64,000 bases of DNA, taken from Halarcobacter ebronensis (GTDB lineage Bacteria > Campylobacterota > Campylobacteria > Campylobacterales > Arcobacteraceae). The stretch is taken from positions 806,001 to 870,000 of the forward strand of contig NZ_CP053836.1 in NCBI RefSeq assembly GCF_013201825.1. The letters are read 5' to 3'. Every line of letters begins with the position of its first letter. Positions within the stretch are counted from its first letter, which is position 1. The notes under the pieces were generated by a model. That model was not told the origin of the DNA, did no database searches, and saw only the letters and a list, made by a program, of their open reading frames with translations. Shown here piece by piece: positions 9,057-53,672 of this stretch. The translations under genes were made by a program, and so were the position numbers.

Positions 9057-9142
9057 TGGTGCGTCCGACGAGATTTGAACTCGTACACCCGGAAGGCACT
9101 ACCCCCTCAAGATAGCGTGTCTACCAATTCCACCACGGACGC
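9057..9142 (-). tRNA. tRNA-Leu (anticodon GAG)
   Basis: The reverse strand folds as an 86-nt class II tRNA. The acceptor stem GCGTCCG pairs with CGGACGC, followed by discriminator A and an encoded CCA. The D-arm contains GGTGGAATTGGTAGACAC. The anticodon stem CTATC/GGTAG holds the loop TTGAGGG with anticodon GAG. A long variable arm is present, and the T-arm reads GTTCAAATC. The GAG anticodon reads CUC/CUU leucine codons. Confidence 0.95.
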
Positions 9143-50500: not shown

Positions 50501-51329
50501 TGTTATCTCCTTTAAGAGTTTCTAAAAAGTCAACTATTTTTGAGTCCTCTATCTTACTGTATATTTCATTCTCAAAAGCTTTTAAAAGCATCTCTTTTGC
50601 TTTTCTCTCTTCTATTCCCCTTGATTGAAGATATAGAAGTTGATCTTTGTCTAAACTTCCTGTTGTTGCCCCATGACTAGCCTCTAATTCATCAATATTT
50701 ATTAGAAGATGAGGTTGGGCAAATATTGCTGCATCATCACTTAATAAGATTGTATTTGAGCTTTGAAATACTTTTGAATAAAGAGCAGATTCATTAACTT
50801 CACTTAAAGCATCAAAAGTAGCCTTTGAACTATCATCTAAAATGTGTTTATAGGCAATATTACTAATACAATTTGAACCATTATGAACAGTTCTAAAAAT
50901 TGATTTTGAGTCAGTATCTTGTGAAAGTTTGACTAACCCATTAATATTTAATATTGAGCCTTTTTCATTCAAATCTATAGTGTAGTTACTTTTATTTGAA
51001 CCAAAACCTAACTCTAAATTTGTCATATTCAGTTTAGCATCTTCTTTTAAATTAATACTATAGTTCATATCAAGAATAGAGTTTTCCCCTACATTTTGGA
51101 ATTTTAGATACTCTAATTTAGCTCCTGTTTCAACAATAAACTCCCTATCAAACTCAACTATTAAATCATTTCCTGCAAAAACTTCAACTATTGAAGCAGA
51201 AACATTCTCTTTTATTCTTATTTTCAGTCTATTTTTTTTCTCTTTTTTAGGATAATAGATAATTTTAATAGGTTCTGTTGTTGGTTCATCAATTAAAAGT
51301 TCTTCATTTTTAAGATTTATTAGTCTCAT
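50493..51329 (-). CDS. sufD: SufD scaffold component (short form)
   Basis: 278-residue SufD, much shorter than the ~420 residues of Escherichia coli SufD because the N-terminal helical part is small. The beta-helix core is intact, and the conserved INIDELEASHGATTGSLDKD (near 218-237) contains the His implicated in cluster assembly. It forms the SufBC2D scaffold. It overlaps sufC by 20 bases and sufS by 8, so expression is tightly coupled. Confidence 0.9.
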   Translation of the reverse strand: MRLINLKNEELLIDEPTTEPIKIIYYPKKEKKNRLKIRIKENVSASIVEVFAGNDLIVEFDREFIVETGAKLEYLKFQNVGENSILDMNYSINLKEDAKLNMTNLELGFGSNKSNYTIDLNEKGSILNINGLVKLSQDTDSKSIFRTVHNGSNCISNIAYKHILDDSSKATFDALSEVNESALYSKVFQSSNTILLSDDAAIFAQPHLLINIDELEASHGATTGSLDKDQLLYLQSRGIEERKAKEMLLKAFENEIYSKIEDSKIVDFLETLKGDNNV

Positions 51330-52065
51330 TTCCTATTCCCTCATAACCTTTACTATCAATTTCAAGTGCAAGATTGTAATCTCCTGTTTTTACAATTTTA
51401 CCATCTTGCATAATATGTACAAAATCTGGTTTAATATATGACATTAGTTTATCATAGTGAGTTATCATCAATACTGATCTATTCCCATCAAGAAGATTGT
51501 TTATAACATTTGCAACAGTTTTAATTGCATCCACATCAAGTCCAGAGTCAATCTCATCTAAAAGAATTAAATCAGGTTTTAATAAAAGAAGTTGAATAAG
51601 TTCATTTCTCTTTTTTTCTCCTCCACTAAATCCATCATTTAAATCCCTTTGAAGAAGCTTTTTATCAATTCCAAACTTTCCTAACTCCTCTTTTGTTAGT
51701 TTTAAAAACTCTATGGCATCAAGCTCTTTTTCACTATTATATTTTCTTTTTTCATTAAGTGCTGTTTTTAGAAAGTAGCTATTATTTACCCCTGGAATTT
51801 CAACAGGATTTTGAAAACTCATAAAAATACCTTCATTTGCCCTGTCACTAACACTTAAATCTAAAAGGTTTTTATCTTTATATTGTAGTTCCCCTTGGGT
51901 TACTTTACAATCATAATGATCACTTAGAGTTTTAACCAAAGTTGATTTTCCTGCACCATTTTGTCCCATTAGAACATGCACTTCACCTTTTTTTATCTCT
52001 AAATCTAAACCTTTTAAAATCTCTTTATCATCTATATTTACTTTTAAATTTTTAATATTTAACAT
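51310..52065 (-). CDS. sufC: SufC ATPase
   Basis: 251-residue ABC-type ATPase that drives conformational change of the SufBCD scaffold. Walker A is GQNGAGKST (about 34-42), the signature is FSGGEKKRNE, Walker B is LILLDEIDSGLD, and the switch His is in MITHYDK. There are no membrane helices. It is separated from sufB by a 170-bp structured spacer, the only large gap in the operon, and preceded by AAGGA as ribosome-binding site. Confidence 0.95.
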   Translation of the reverse strand: MLNIKNLKVNIDDKEILKGLDLEIKKGEVHVLMGQNGAGKSTLVKTLSDHYDCKVTQGELQYKDKNLLDLSVSDRANEGIFMSFQNPVEIPGVNNSYFLKTALNEKRKYNSEKELDAIEFLKLTKEELGKFGIDKKLLQRDLNDGFSGGEKKRNELIQLLLLKPDLILLDEIDSGLDVDAIKTVANVINNLLDGNRSVLMITHYDKLMSYIKPDFVHIMQDGKIVKTGDYNLALEIDSKGYEGIGNETNKS

Positions 52066-52083
52066 AAAATATCCTTAAAATTA

Positions 52084-52206
52084 GTCCCCAATTTTAAGGG
52101 ACCTTTTTATTTATGACTTCTTTTAACGGTATGGCTAAGCCACACCTAAAGAAGCCTGTGTTTACACTCTCTTCGAGAAACTCTAAAGGAGACAACGAGT
52201 TGTCTC
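52084..52206 (-). other. Structured non-coding spacer between sufB and sufC (three hairpins)
   Basis: The 170-bp gap 52066-52235 holds three inverted repeats. GAGACAAC/GTTGTCTC is at 52189-52206. A long hairpin at 52117-52154 combines CTTCTTTT/AAAGAAG (outer) with GGTATGG/CCACACC (inner, G-U paired in the leftward transcript). GTCCC/GGGAC is at 52084-52102. Base composition is clearly more GC-rich than the flanks. No frame encodes a plausible peptide. It may be an mRNA processing or stability element, an attenuator, a small RNA, or a mobile intergenic repeat. Confidence 0.6.
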
Positions 52207-52235
52207 TTAACGTTTTTTTGTTCTTATCTGAGTTT

Positions 52236-53672
52236 TTATCCTACGCTTCCCTCTAAAGAGATACTAAGTAACTCTTTAGCTTCTGCTGCAAACTCCATAG
52301 GAAGCTCTTTTAAAACCTCTTTACAAAAACCATTTACAATCATGGCAATGGCATCCTCTTCATCAATTCCCCTTTGATTTAAATAAAACAGTTGTTCATC
52401 GGAAATCTTTGAAGTTGTTGCTTCATGCTCTATTTTTGCACTGCTATTTTTTATCTCATGGTATGGAAAAGTATGAGCTTTACACCTATTACCAATTAAA
52501 AGAGAATCACACTCAGAGATATTTCTTGCATTTTTAGCATTTTTACCAACTCTAACTAGACCTCTATATGCATTAACACCTTTCATAGCTGAGATACCTT
52601 TTGAGATAATAGTAGATTTTGTATTCTCTCCTATATGTATCATTTTAGTACCTGTGTCAGCTTGTTGGGCATGGCTTGAAATTGCCACAGAATAAAACTC
52701 TCCAACAGAGTTTTTCCCTTTTAAAATACATGAAGGGTATTTCCAAGTAATTGCTGAACCCGTTTCAACTTGAGTCCAAGAAATTTTTGAGTTTTCCCCT
52801 TTGCAAATTCCTCTTTTTGTAACAAAATTTAAAATACCACCTTTTCCATCTTGATCTCCTGGATACCAGTTTTGTATAGTTGAGTATTTAATTTGTGCAT
52901 TATCCAAAGCAATTAGTTCTACAACCGCTGCATGAAGTTGTCTTTCATCTCTACTTGGTGCTGAACACCCTTCATTATAAGAGACATAAGAGCCTTCATC
53001 ACAGATTATTAAAGTTCTCTCAAATTGTCCTGTATTTAAAGCATTTATCCTAAAGTAAGTTGATAATTCCATTGGACATCTAGTATTTGGTGGAATATAT
53101 ACAAAACTTCCATCAGTGAAAACTGCACTATTTAGCGCAGCAAAATAGTTGTCAGCTTTTCCAACAACTGACGCTAGATATTTTTTTAAAAGCTCAGGAT
53201 GTTTATGTGCAACTTCTGAGATTGAGCAAAATATAATTCCGAGTTTTTCAAGCTCACTTTGAAAAGTTGTTTTTACCGACACTGAGTCAAACACAGCATC
53301 AACTGCAACACCTGCTAAAACTTTTTGTTCCTCTAAAGGAATTCCAAGTTTTTCATAAGTTTTTAAAATCTCTGGATCAACTTCTTCTAAAGAATCAAGC
53401 TTTTTTTTAGGAGCTGAAAAGTATGAGATGTCTTGGTAATCTATTTTTGGATATTTTAGATTTGCCCAGTTTGGTTCTTCCATTTTTAACCATTTGCTAT
53501 AAGCACTTAATCTAAATTCAAGAAGCCATTGTGGTTCATCTTTCTTTTTTGATATAGCTTTTATAACATCTTCATTTAGTCCCTTAGGGAAAGTATCACT
53601 CTCAATAAGGGTTTCAAAGCCCAATTTATAGTCTCTGTTTAAAATCTCTTTTATCTGTTTATTATCACTCAT
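52236..53672 (-). CDS. sufB: SufB scaffold protein
   Basis: 478-residue SufB, the subunit on which the cluster is built. The conserved [20 protein letters not shown] and IQNWYPGD segments (about 232-275), the late [20 protein letters not shown] with the sulfur-accepting Cys, and [20 protein letters not shown] are present. The length is normal. It is the first gene of sufBCDSET, transcribed leftward from a control region carrying an AAATAGGA-N9-TCCTATTT repeat 17-41 bases before its ATG. Confidence 0.96.

Follow-up and report, generated by a model that had tools for sequence, protein, structure and literature searches.

The spacer between sufB and sufC of Halarcobacter ebronensis is, by sequence homology, one copy of a family of homologous copies. 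We consider it probable, though well short of certain, that this family represents a mobile, dispersed, cis-acting intercistronic RNA element with a bistable Shine-Dalgarno (SD) hairpin as its 3′ end and, probably, a processing or insulating 5′ half. In the mechanism that we propose from sequence comparison and structure prediction, a hairpin termed D1 would form first on the emerging RNA and leave the SD open for ribosomes to load, while refolding into an alternative hairpin, D2, later or under some condition, would close the SD. In this way the element would set or switch how the downstream gene is translated, whatever happens at the gene before it, and at the suf operon this would set SufC and the later genes apart from SufB.

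Interspersed repeats of bacteria are mostly regarded as features of the DNA or as neutral. If a family extends from the stop codon to the SD, is transcribed in the same sense as the gene it precedes and keeps two competing SD hairpins by compensatory change, it would instead provide translational control in mobile form, and such elements would re-set the expression of single genes within operons. Natural copies are numerous and relatives offer empty sites, so that the question lends itself to direct testing.

The sufB-sufC spacer

The window (the whole stretch of 64,000 nucleotides analysed) corresponds to positions 806001-870000 of a 3.17 Mb single-contig genome. On its minus strand, sufC (51310-52065) and sufB (52236-53672) are separated by 170 bases, whereas between the remaining suf ORFs there are overlaps of 20 and 8 nt and gaps of 9 and 1 nt. 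The gap thus stands out in a tightly packed operon, as a prior reading of the sequence alone (the sequence-only reading) had remarked. The hairpins which that reading had seen in the spacer are real, given that the suf mRNA strand folds at -50.0 kcal/mol versus -32.3 +/- 3.7 kcal/mol for shuffled sequences (z -4.76, with 0 of 200 shuffles as low); the opposite strand folds less strongly (z -2.78).

Its view of the spacer as one structured element of three hairpins needed adjustment in three respects. The element proper spans only 52209-52072 (leftward), with 52235-52210 being flank; an optional module B (52177-52156) comes in as a fourth part; and the hairpin placed at 52084-52110 exists as two alternative hairpins with common bases. 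The central hairpin of that reading corresponds to stem C (52155-52117), and the GAGACAAC/GTTGTCTC pairing is indeed a perfect palindrome (52206-52189). The parts of the sufB-sufC copy are as follows (the own-arm test is described below):

52072..52209 (-): whole element, a 138-nt match to covariance model R1, its 3′ end being the SD of sufC
52189..52206 (-): stem A, GAGACAA..TTGTCTC around CTCG; double changes in 7/7 pairs; own-arm z -18.5
52178..52188 (-): conserved linker CTTTAGAGTTT (family form CUUUAGNNUUU), whose pairing with the SD is unsupported
52156..52177 (-): optional module B, CTCGAAGAGAGTGTAAACACAG, with two small hairpins; present in 10/84 distinct rows
52117..52155 (-): stem C, GCTTCTTTA, inner hairpin, TTAAAAGAAG; own-arm z -24.5 (inner) and -5.5 (outer)
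52104..52116 (-): A-rich linker from stem C to D
52083..52103 (-): hairpin D1, GGTCCC..GGGACT, leaving the SD free; own-arm z -5.5, 0/2000
52073..52099 (-): hairpin D2, CCTTAAAATT-GGGGACT-AATTTTAAGG, pairing the SD and excluding D1; own-arm z -8.9, 0/2000
52072..52076 (-): AAGGA, the SD of sufC, with the ATG 6 nt further on
52210..52235 (-): flank, from the sufB stop codon to the start of the element

Aligned on the coding strand, the copies have a common architecture of stem A, the conserved CUUUAGNNUUU (the main conserved unpaired stretch of the element), optional module B and stem C with a variable inner hairpin, followed by the A-rich linker, the GGUCCC/GGGAC hairpin (D1) and then AAUUUUAAGGA, the last bases of which are the SD. 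The GC content of the element is 0.38 (L044 row).

No Rfam 15 family matched the spacer, and the sole Rfam match across the 64-kb window was a tRNA, whose gene lies at 9060-9142 (-). Nothing near a gathering score was obtained with Rfam 15 for four loci with copies (E up to 5) or for four Campylobacter-like loci (E up to 3). A promoter scan of the element gave a chance-level result (2 versus 1.5), and a promoter inside it was rejected.

A dispersed family of copies

BLAST with the spacer found eight additional places in the same genome and matches in all 16 genomes of the genus. Covariance model R1, built from 18 seed copies, matched 27 places in the own genome (E up to 0.1) and yielded at least 547 matches in 82 of 104 family genomes, representing 16 of 20 genera; this number is a lower bound because at most 35 candidates were scored per genome. 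Both a conserved RNA and an intergenic repeat had been suggested in the sequence-only reading, and both suggestions hold: a conserved, co-varying structure is found in relatives, and the R1 copies have the numbers just given. With many intergenic copies per genome and a presence that varies among relatives, the family qualifies as a small interspersed intergenic repeat, ERIC/BOX-like in the broad sense.

The counts over distinct rows given below derive from alignment A3, for which 89 chosen loci returned 87 matches. It omits second copies of one place (e.g. L001, L037, L038, L046-L048, L058 and L067), as well as L018 (near-identical to L017), L007, L008 and the weak own-genome matches L059-L063. 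In the own genome, one copy, upstream of a glycerol-kinase-like gene, comprises nothing but the D hairpin (L062/L255).

Several copies are themselves interrupted or repeated. A second palindromic repeat (about CTTCATAGCGTAGTCTTGTGRCGAACRAAGTGAAG) is nested in D or stem C of L021, L023, L024, L131 and L132, with L021 carrying a diverged form of it, and further inserts are nested in L005/L051 and L054. Head-to-tail tandem copies occur at G000:C1:1061398-1061740 (L041, L047, L048), at G000:C1:1177504-1177654 (L056, L063) and at L186; their junctions are TAAAG-like, and one array comprises three copies with a period of 112 bp. L032 and L034, orthologous copies from two species, differ essentially by module B and offer a natural experiment on it.

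Compensatory base pairing

In the seed alignment of 18 copies, double changes were present in 21 of the 32 pairs of stems A, C and D2, a number reached in 0 of 500 shuffles. Across 84 distinct rows, they were present in 30 of the 32 pairs, and 96.2% of cells could pair, versus 57.6-58.6% when the partners were slid by one column. Because A3 was fitted to the model, so that its pair counts are biased toward structure, we also ran a test independent of column counts, in which the binding between the arms of the same copy was compared with that between the arms of different copies (own-arm test). With arms cut by alignment columns, this gave z values of -18.5 for stem A, -24.5 for inner C and -5.5 for outer C. 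With arms cut by sequence motifs, D1 scored -5.5 and D2 -8.9 (each 0/2000); this motif-based version parsed 77 of 87 rows, as copies with nested inserts or an unreadable D were dropped. Stems A and C are, by these measures, maintained by compensatory changes.

The minimum-energy fold also contains a long-range helix, P0, in which CUUUAGNNUUU pairs with the flank of the SD. This helix was discarded: it displays no co-variation, and its own-arm z is -0.4 (697/2000). A pseudoknot of D1 and D2 was likewise set aside, as the covarying pair beside the GGGAC segment can form only with the D2 hairpin, and the connecting loops would be too short.

Two alternative hairpins over the Shine-Dalgarno

Hairpins D1 and D2 overlap in bases and are mutually exclusive, with the SD being free in D1 and paired in the 10-11 bp hairpin of D2. 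The two states are predicted to be close in energy, the means for the local region being -9.13 kcal/mol (SD-open) and -9.35 kcal/mol (SD-closed) for the best folds of 84 windows. The SD-closed state is predicted to be favoured in 39/84 windows at 37 C and in 48/84 at 25 C. The predicted probability of an unpaired SD has a median of 0.43, a 10-90% range of 0.01-0.91 and extremes of 0.00 and 0.99, with one state dominating in some copies.

D1 is nearly invariant in the seed, where the column count gives it no support. Because it varies so little there, D1 draws its support from less common variants, with 33 distinct arm pairs in all; examples are GGUUCCC/GGGAACC, GAUCC/GGAUC and GGAUUCC/GGUUUCC. 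The switch is not universal: in L053, upstream of a dnaK-like gene, D1 has been lost and D2 kept, and L055, upstream of a thrC-like gene, has no D. Together, co-variation and folding prediction point to a 3′ end that is a bistable SD switch, which could turn translation of the next gene on or off.

Position, orientation and downstream genes

The position of the copies was examined for 80 distinct rows with long flanks, from many genomes. A start codon lies 3-19 nt past the element (median 7) in 77 of these 80 loci, versus 2/80 for the other end on the other strand and 330/3280 for random positions. The three loci without a start codon are one inner copy of a tandem, one alignment shortened by a nested insert, and L064. 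On the upstream side, 73/80 loci have an ORF on the same strand, the median distance being 7 nt; in the most frequent arrangement its stop codon falls within the first four bases of the element. The element thus fills the space between co-directional genes from stop codon to SD, and nearly all copies are sense to the next gene.

Within the own genome, the start codon of a long ORF follows within about 20 nt in 24 of the 27 matches, the other three being inner tandem members. The genes downstream of these copies have no common function; from their protein starts, we take them to include ureC, mnmG, prpF, ridA, a peroxiredoxin gene, gatC, dnaK, thrC, hypA, hemB, hemE, rpsB and mnmA.

The A-C module outside the family and at rRNA genes

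R1 matches were obtained in 49 of 298 order genomes, 22 of which belong to other families. In G145 and G158 (f10 g52), the A-linker-C part lies within longer noncoding repeats at 14 loci (L212-L225), with many near-identical A-C copies, some closely spaced. Another 28 matches, in 12 further order genomes, include 8 directly before 16S and 10 before 23S (some abutting, some about 125 nt off), as well as 2 in reverse complement just past 23S; the remainder mostly precede protein genes. Examples at rRNA are L232, L233 and L238 (16S), L234, L241, L243 and L248 (23S), and L226 and L227 (3′ side of 23S). The A-C parts of rRNA and mRNA copies are plainly alignable. The G164 family has copies in which A-C leads through an A-rich stretch to the SD and ATG, without D.

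A-C is thus the wider module, to which D is largely a family-level addition. Two D hairpins precede a gene starting MAHKKGQ (presumably rpmA, judging from this protein start) in two f16 genomes, and another gene is preceded by one in f3 (L235, L236, L237); these D-type SD hairpins have different upstream hairpins. The G164 family weakens the idea of rRNA leaders as the native place of A-C: just 15 of its 41 genomes have an R2 match (E 0.01), and some of the weakest matches look like chance, although assembled rRNA may be missing from the drafts. In one order genome (G241), a trailer stretch past 23S is the exact complement of the linker GTGCTTTAGTATTTG.

By analogy with its place at rRNA 5′ ends, the A-C half of the element is probably a processing or insulating module that marks or protects an RNA end, a role taken from position only; the same module at both sites would link the element to RNA maturation. 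The whole element could even act mainly in RNA processing or stability, with cleavage in the A-rich linker that follows stem C, C guarding the upstream 3′ end, D1 guarding the new 5′ end, and SD masking being secondary. We regard this as possible but doubtful. It agrees with A-C lying directly before the mature 16S 5′ end or in the 23S leader in 18 of the 28 matches above, with the two reverse-complement matches after 23S, and with the A-C, A-rich and SD arrangement without D in other families, but it leaves the compensatory SD pairing in D2 unexplained, and in the own genus no A-C was seen by eye in the rRNA leaders (11 loci, 6 genomes), which have an early boxA-like sequence instead.

The preferred reading of a translational element with a processing or insulating 5′ half can be extended, tentatively, to the order as a whole. 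A portable RNA 5′-end cassette may have arisen when an old A-C module, common to mRNAs and pre-rRNAs, was joined in the Arcobacter family by the bistable SD hairpin; being mobile, it would copy onto the SDs of operon genes and equip every gene so captured with a translation switch or timer that acts apart from the neighbouring gene.

Gain, loss and mobility

The sufB-sufC copy is present in 7 of the 15 genus genomes having sufC, with two more showing apparent remnants. The genome collection contains 16 sufC loci from Campylobacterales, of which one (Arcobacter sp. EP1) has the complete element and one (UBA7394) part of it; the other 14, among them those of two Poseidonibacter species, lack it. 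The loci called hemB, hemE, thrC, hypA and MFI likewise carry the element sporadically. As judged from these comparisons, copies come and go between species.

At thrC, two relatives have the stop codon, TAAGGAAATATA and ATG, and the G008 element ends in ...TTTTAAGGAAATATA-ATG, joined exactly to the native SD. A TAAG-like sequence is found at both ends of the element and is common to the tandem junctions, and empty thrC-like sites read TAAGGA. The exact SD join at thrC, together with the TAAG-like 5′ edge and the tandem-junction sequence, suggests insertion at the SD. With regard to features of the MITE type, no clear terminal inverted repeat was seen at the element ends, and a target duplication was not demonstrated at the compared sites.

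Searches turned up neither a carrier nor a mobiliser. REP-type mobilisation by a RAYT/Y1 transposase was rejected, as no R1 match better than E 0.073 was found in 4 transposase loci; Y1_Tnp occurs in 8 of 16 genus genomes, and the Y1-less G005 still has 21 copies. Carriage by phages or plasmids was rejected as well, with no match on phage or plasmid records; a 20-base pattern was matched exactly in 8 viral contigs, none of which (0/8) carries the element.

These data also bear on a purely selfish miniature repeat, which would transpose by an unknown route via single-stranded hairpins and of which the surviving copies would be those that keep operon expression, hence the sense orientation and the SD. 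Sporadic presence, tandem arrays, TAAG-like ends, unrelated neighbours and other repeats nested inside are all in keeping with such a repeat. We nevertheless think it rather unlikely, since old, diverged copies retain their base pairs, SD pairs included, the reverse control of the position test gave just 2/80, and there is neither a Y1 transposase link nor a phage or plasmid match.

Termination, antitermination and suf-specific sensing

The sequence-only reading had also proposed a processing or attenuation site. Processing stands as a possibility for the A-C half, whereas attenuation by sense termination is weakened by the replacement of the T-run with A's while pairing is kept. More broadly, the element might act as a terminator or attenuator, in the sense direction (D1 and the T-run) or in antisense (D1 and the A-rich stretch). 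A T-run follows D1 in 45/84 rows, an A-rich stretch precedes it in 68/81, and a scan of the window region returned two terminator-like matches versus 0.2 expected; as a pattern, the antisense terminator remarked on in the sequence-only reading is a fair candidate. Termination as the main role is nonetheless improbable, given that the T-run is changed to A's, with loop compensation, in L006, L033, L074 and L090, that the region is AT-rich, and that neither scan match is D1.

Still less credible is a NusB/NusE boxB-boxA antitermination site that would shield RNA polymerase from Rho termination along the untranslated gap. The notion draws on the presence of A-C in some rRNA leaders and on GGUUCUUUAA/GCUUCUUUA in stem C, which we take to resemble the boxA consensus. 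A boxA would be unpaired, whereas this sequence is buried in stem C, where it forms the 5′ strand and varies together with its partner. The leaders also contain boxes that are more boxA-like at other positions, namely GTTCTTTAACA or ATCTTTAA at an early point of the own-genus leaders and, in another genus, ATCTTTGAAA about 190 nt before 16S.

Finally, a suf-specific device, such as the iron-sulphur sensing riboswitch or attenuator that the position between sufB and sufC might bring to mind, deserves almost no credence, as the copy distribution already contradicts it: the same element precedes ureC-, mnmG-, hemB-, hemE-, thrC-, dnaK-like and other unrelated genes, and the suf locus lacks it in many relatives.

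Relation to known systems

In translational riboswitches, too, two hairpins exclude each other and one of them covers the SD. The element has two such exclusive structures, according to co-variation and prediction only, but it differs from riboswitches in having many copies per genome and neither an aptamer-like conserved core for ligand binding nor a common metabolic gene set, the downstream genes being unrelated. ERIC/IRU and NEMIS/Correia elements are structured intergenic repeats of ~100-150 bp, often transcribed within operons, and NEMIS hairpins are cut by RNase III. Their sequence differs from that of our element, and we know of none that ends in an SD in a fixed sense orientation. BOX elements are modular, which is comparable to module B.

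Stav et al. 2019 (PMC6429828) included Arcobacter sp. L in a screen for structured intergenic motifs, which in the main text are described as mostly confined to Arcobacter and most of which were left unnamed. These motifs and HRC-4 come from the same bacterial group as our element and, compared by that main-text description without motif sequences, might be identical with it. Among the listed open-access journal articles on Arcobacter with intergenic or palindromic repeats, SD or noncoding RNA, and on mobile intergenic repeats with ribosome-binding sites, none was seen to describe the element.

Among the published systems considered, the closest in behaviour are the TAACTGA direct repeats of Beggiatoaceae and the BOX/RUP elements of Streptococcus pneumoniae. 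The TAACTGA repeats (PMC4679880) are dispersed, mostly forward and located just upstream of the start codons of unrelated genes, and a post-transcriptional role has been suggested for them; each is a directly repeated heptamer overlapping the place where the ribosome-binding site is expected, mostly without an SD, whereas our element is a folded unit of ~115-140 nt that ends in one. BOX/RUP (PMC3049150) are, like the element, small interspersed intergenic repeats, but in the element every part is compensatorily paired and sense-bound, and a bistable 3′ hairpin holds the SD.
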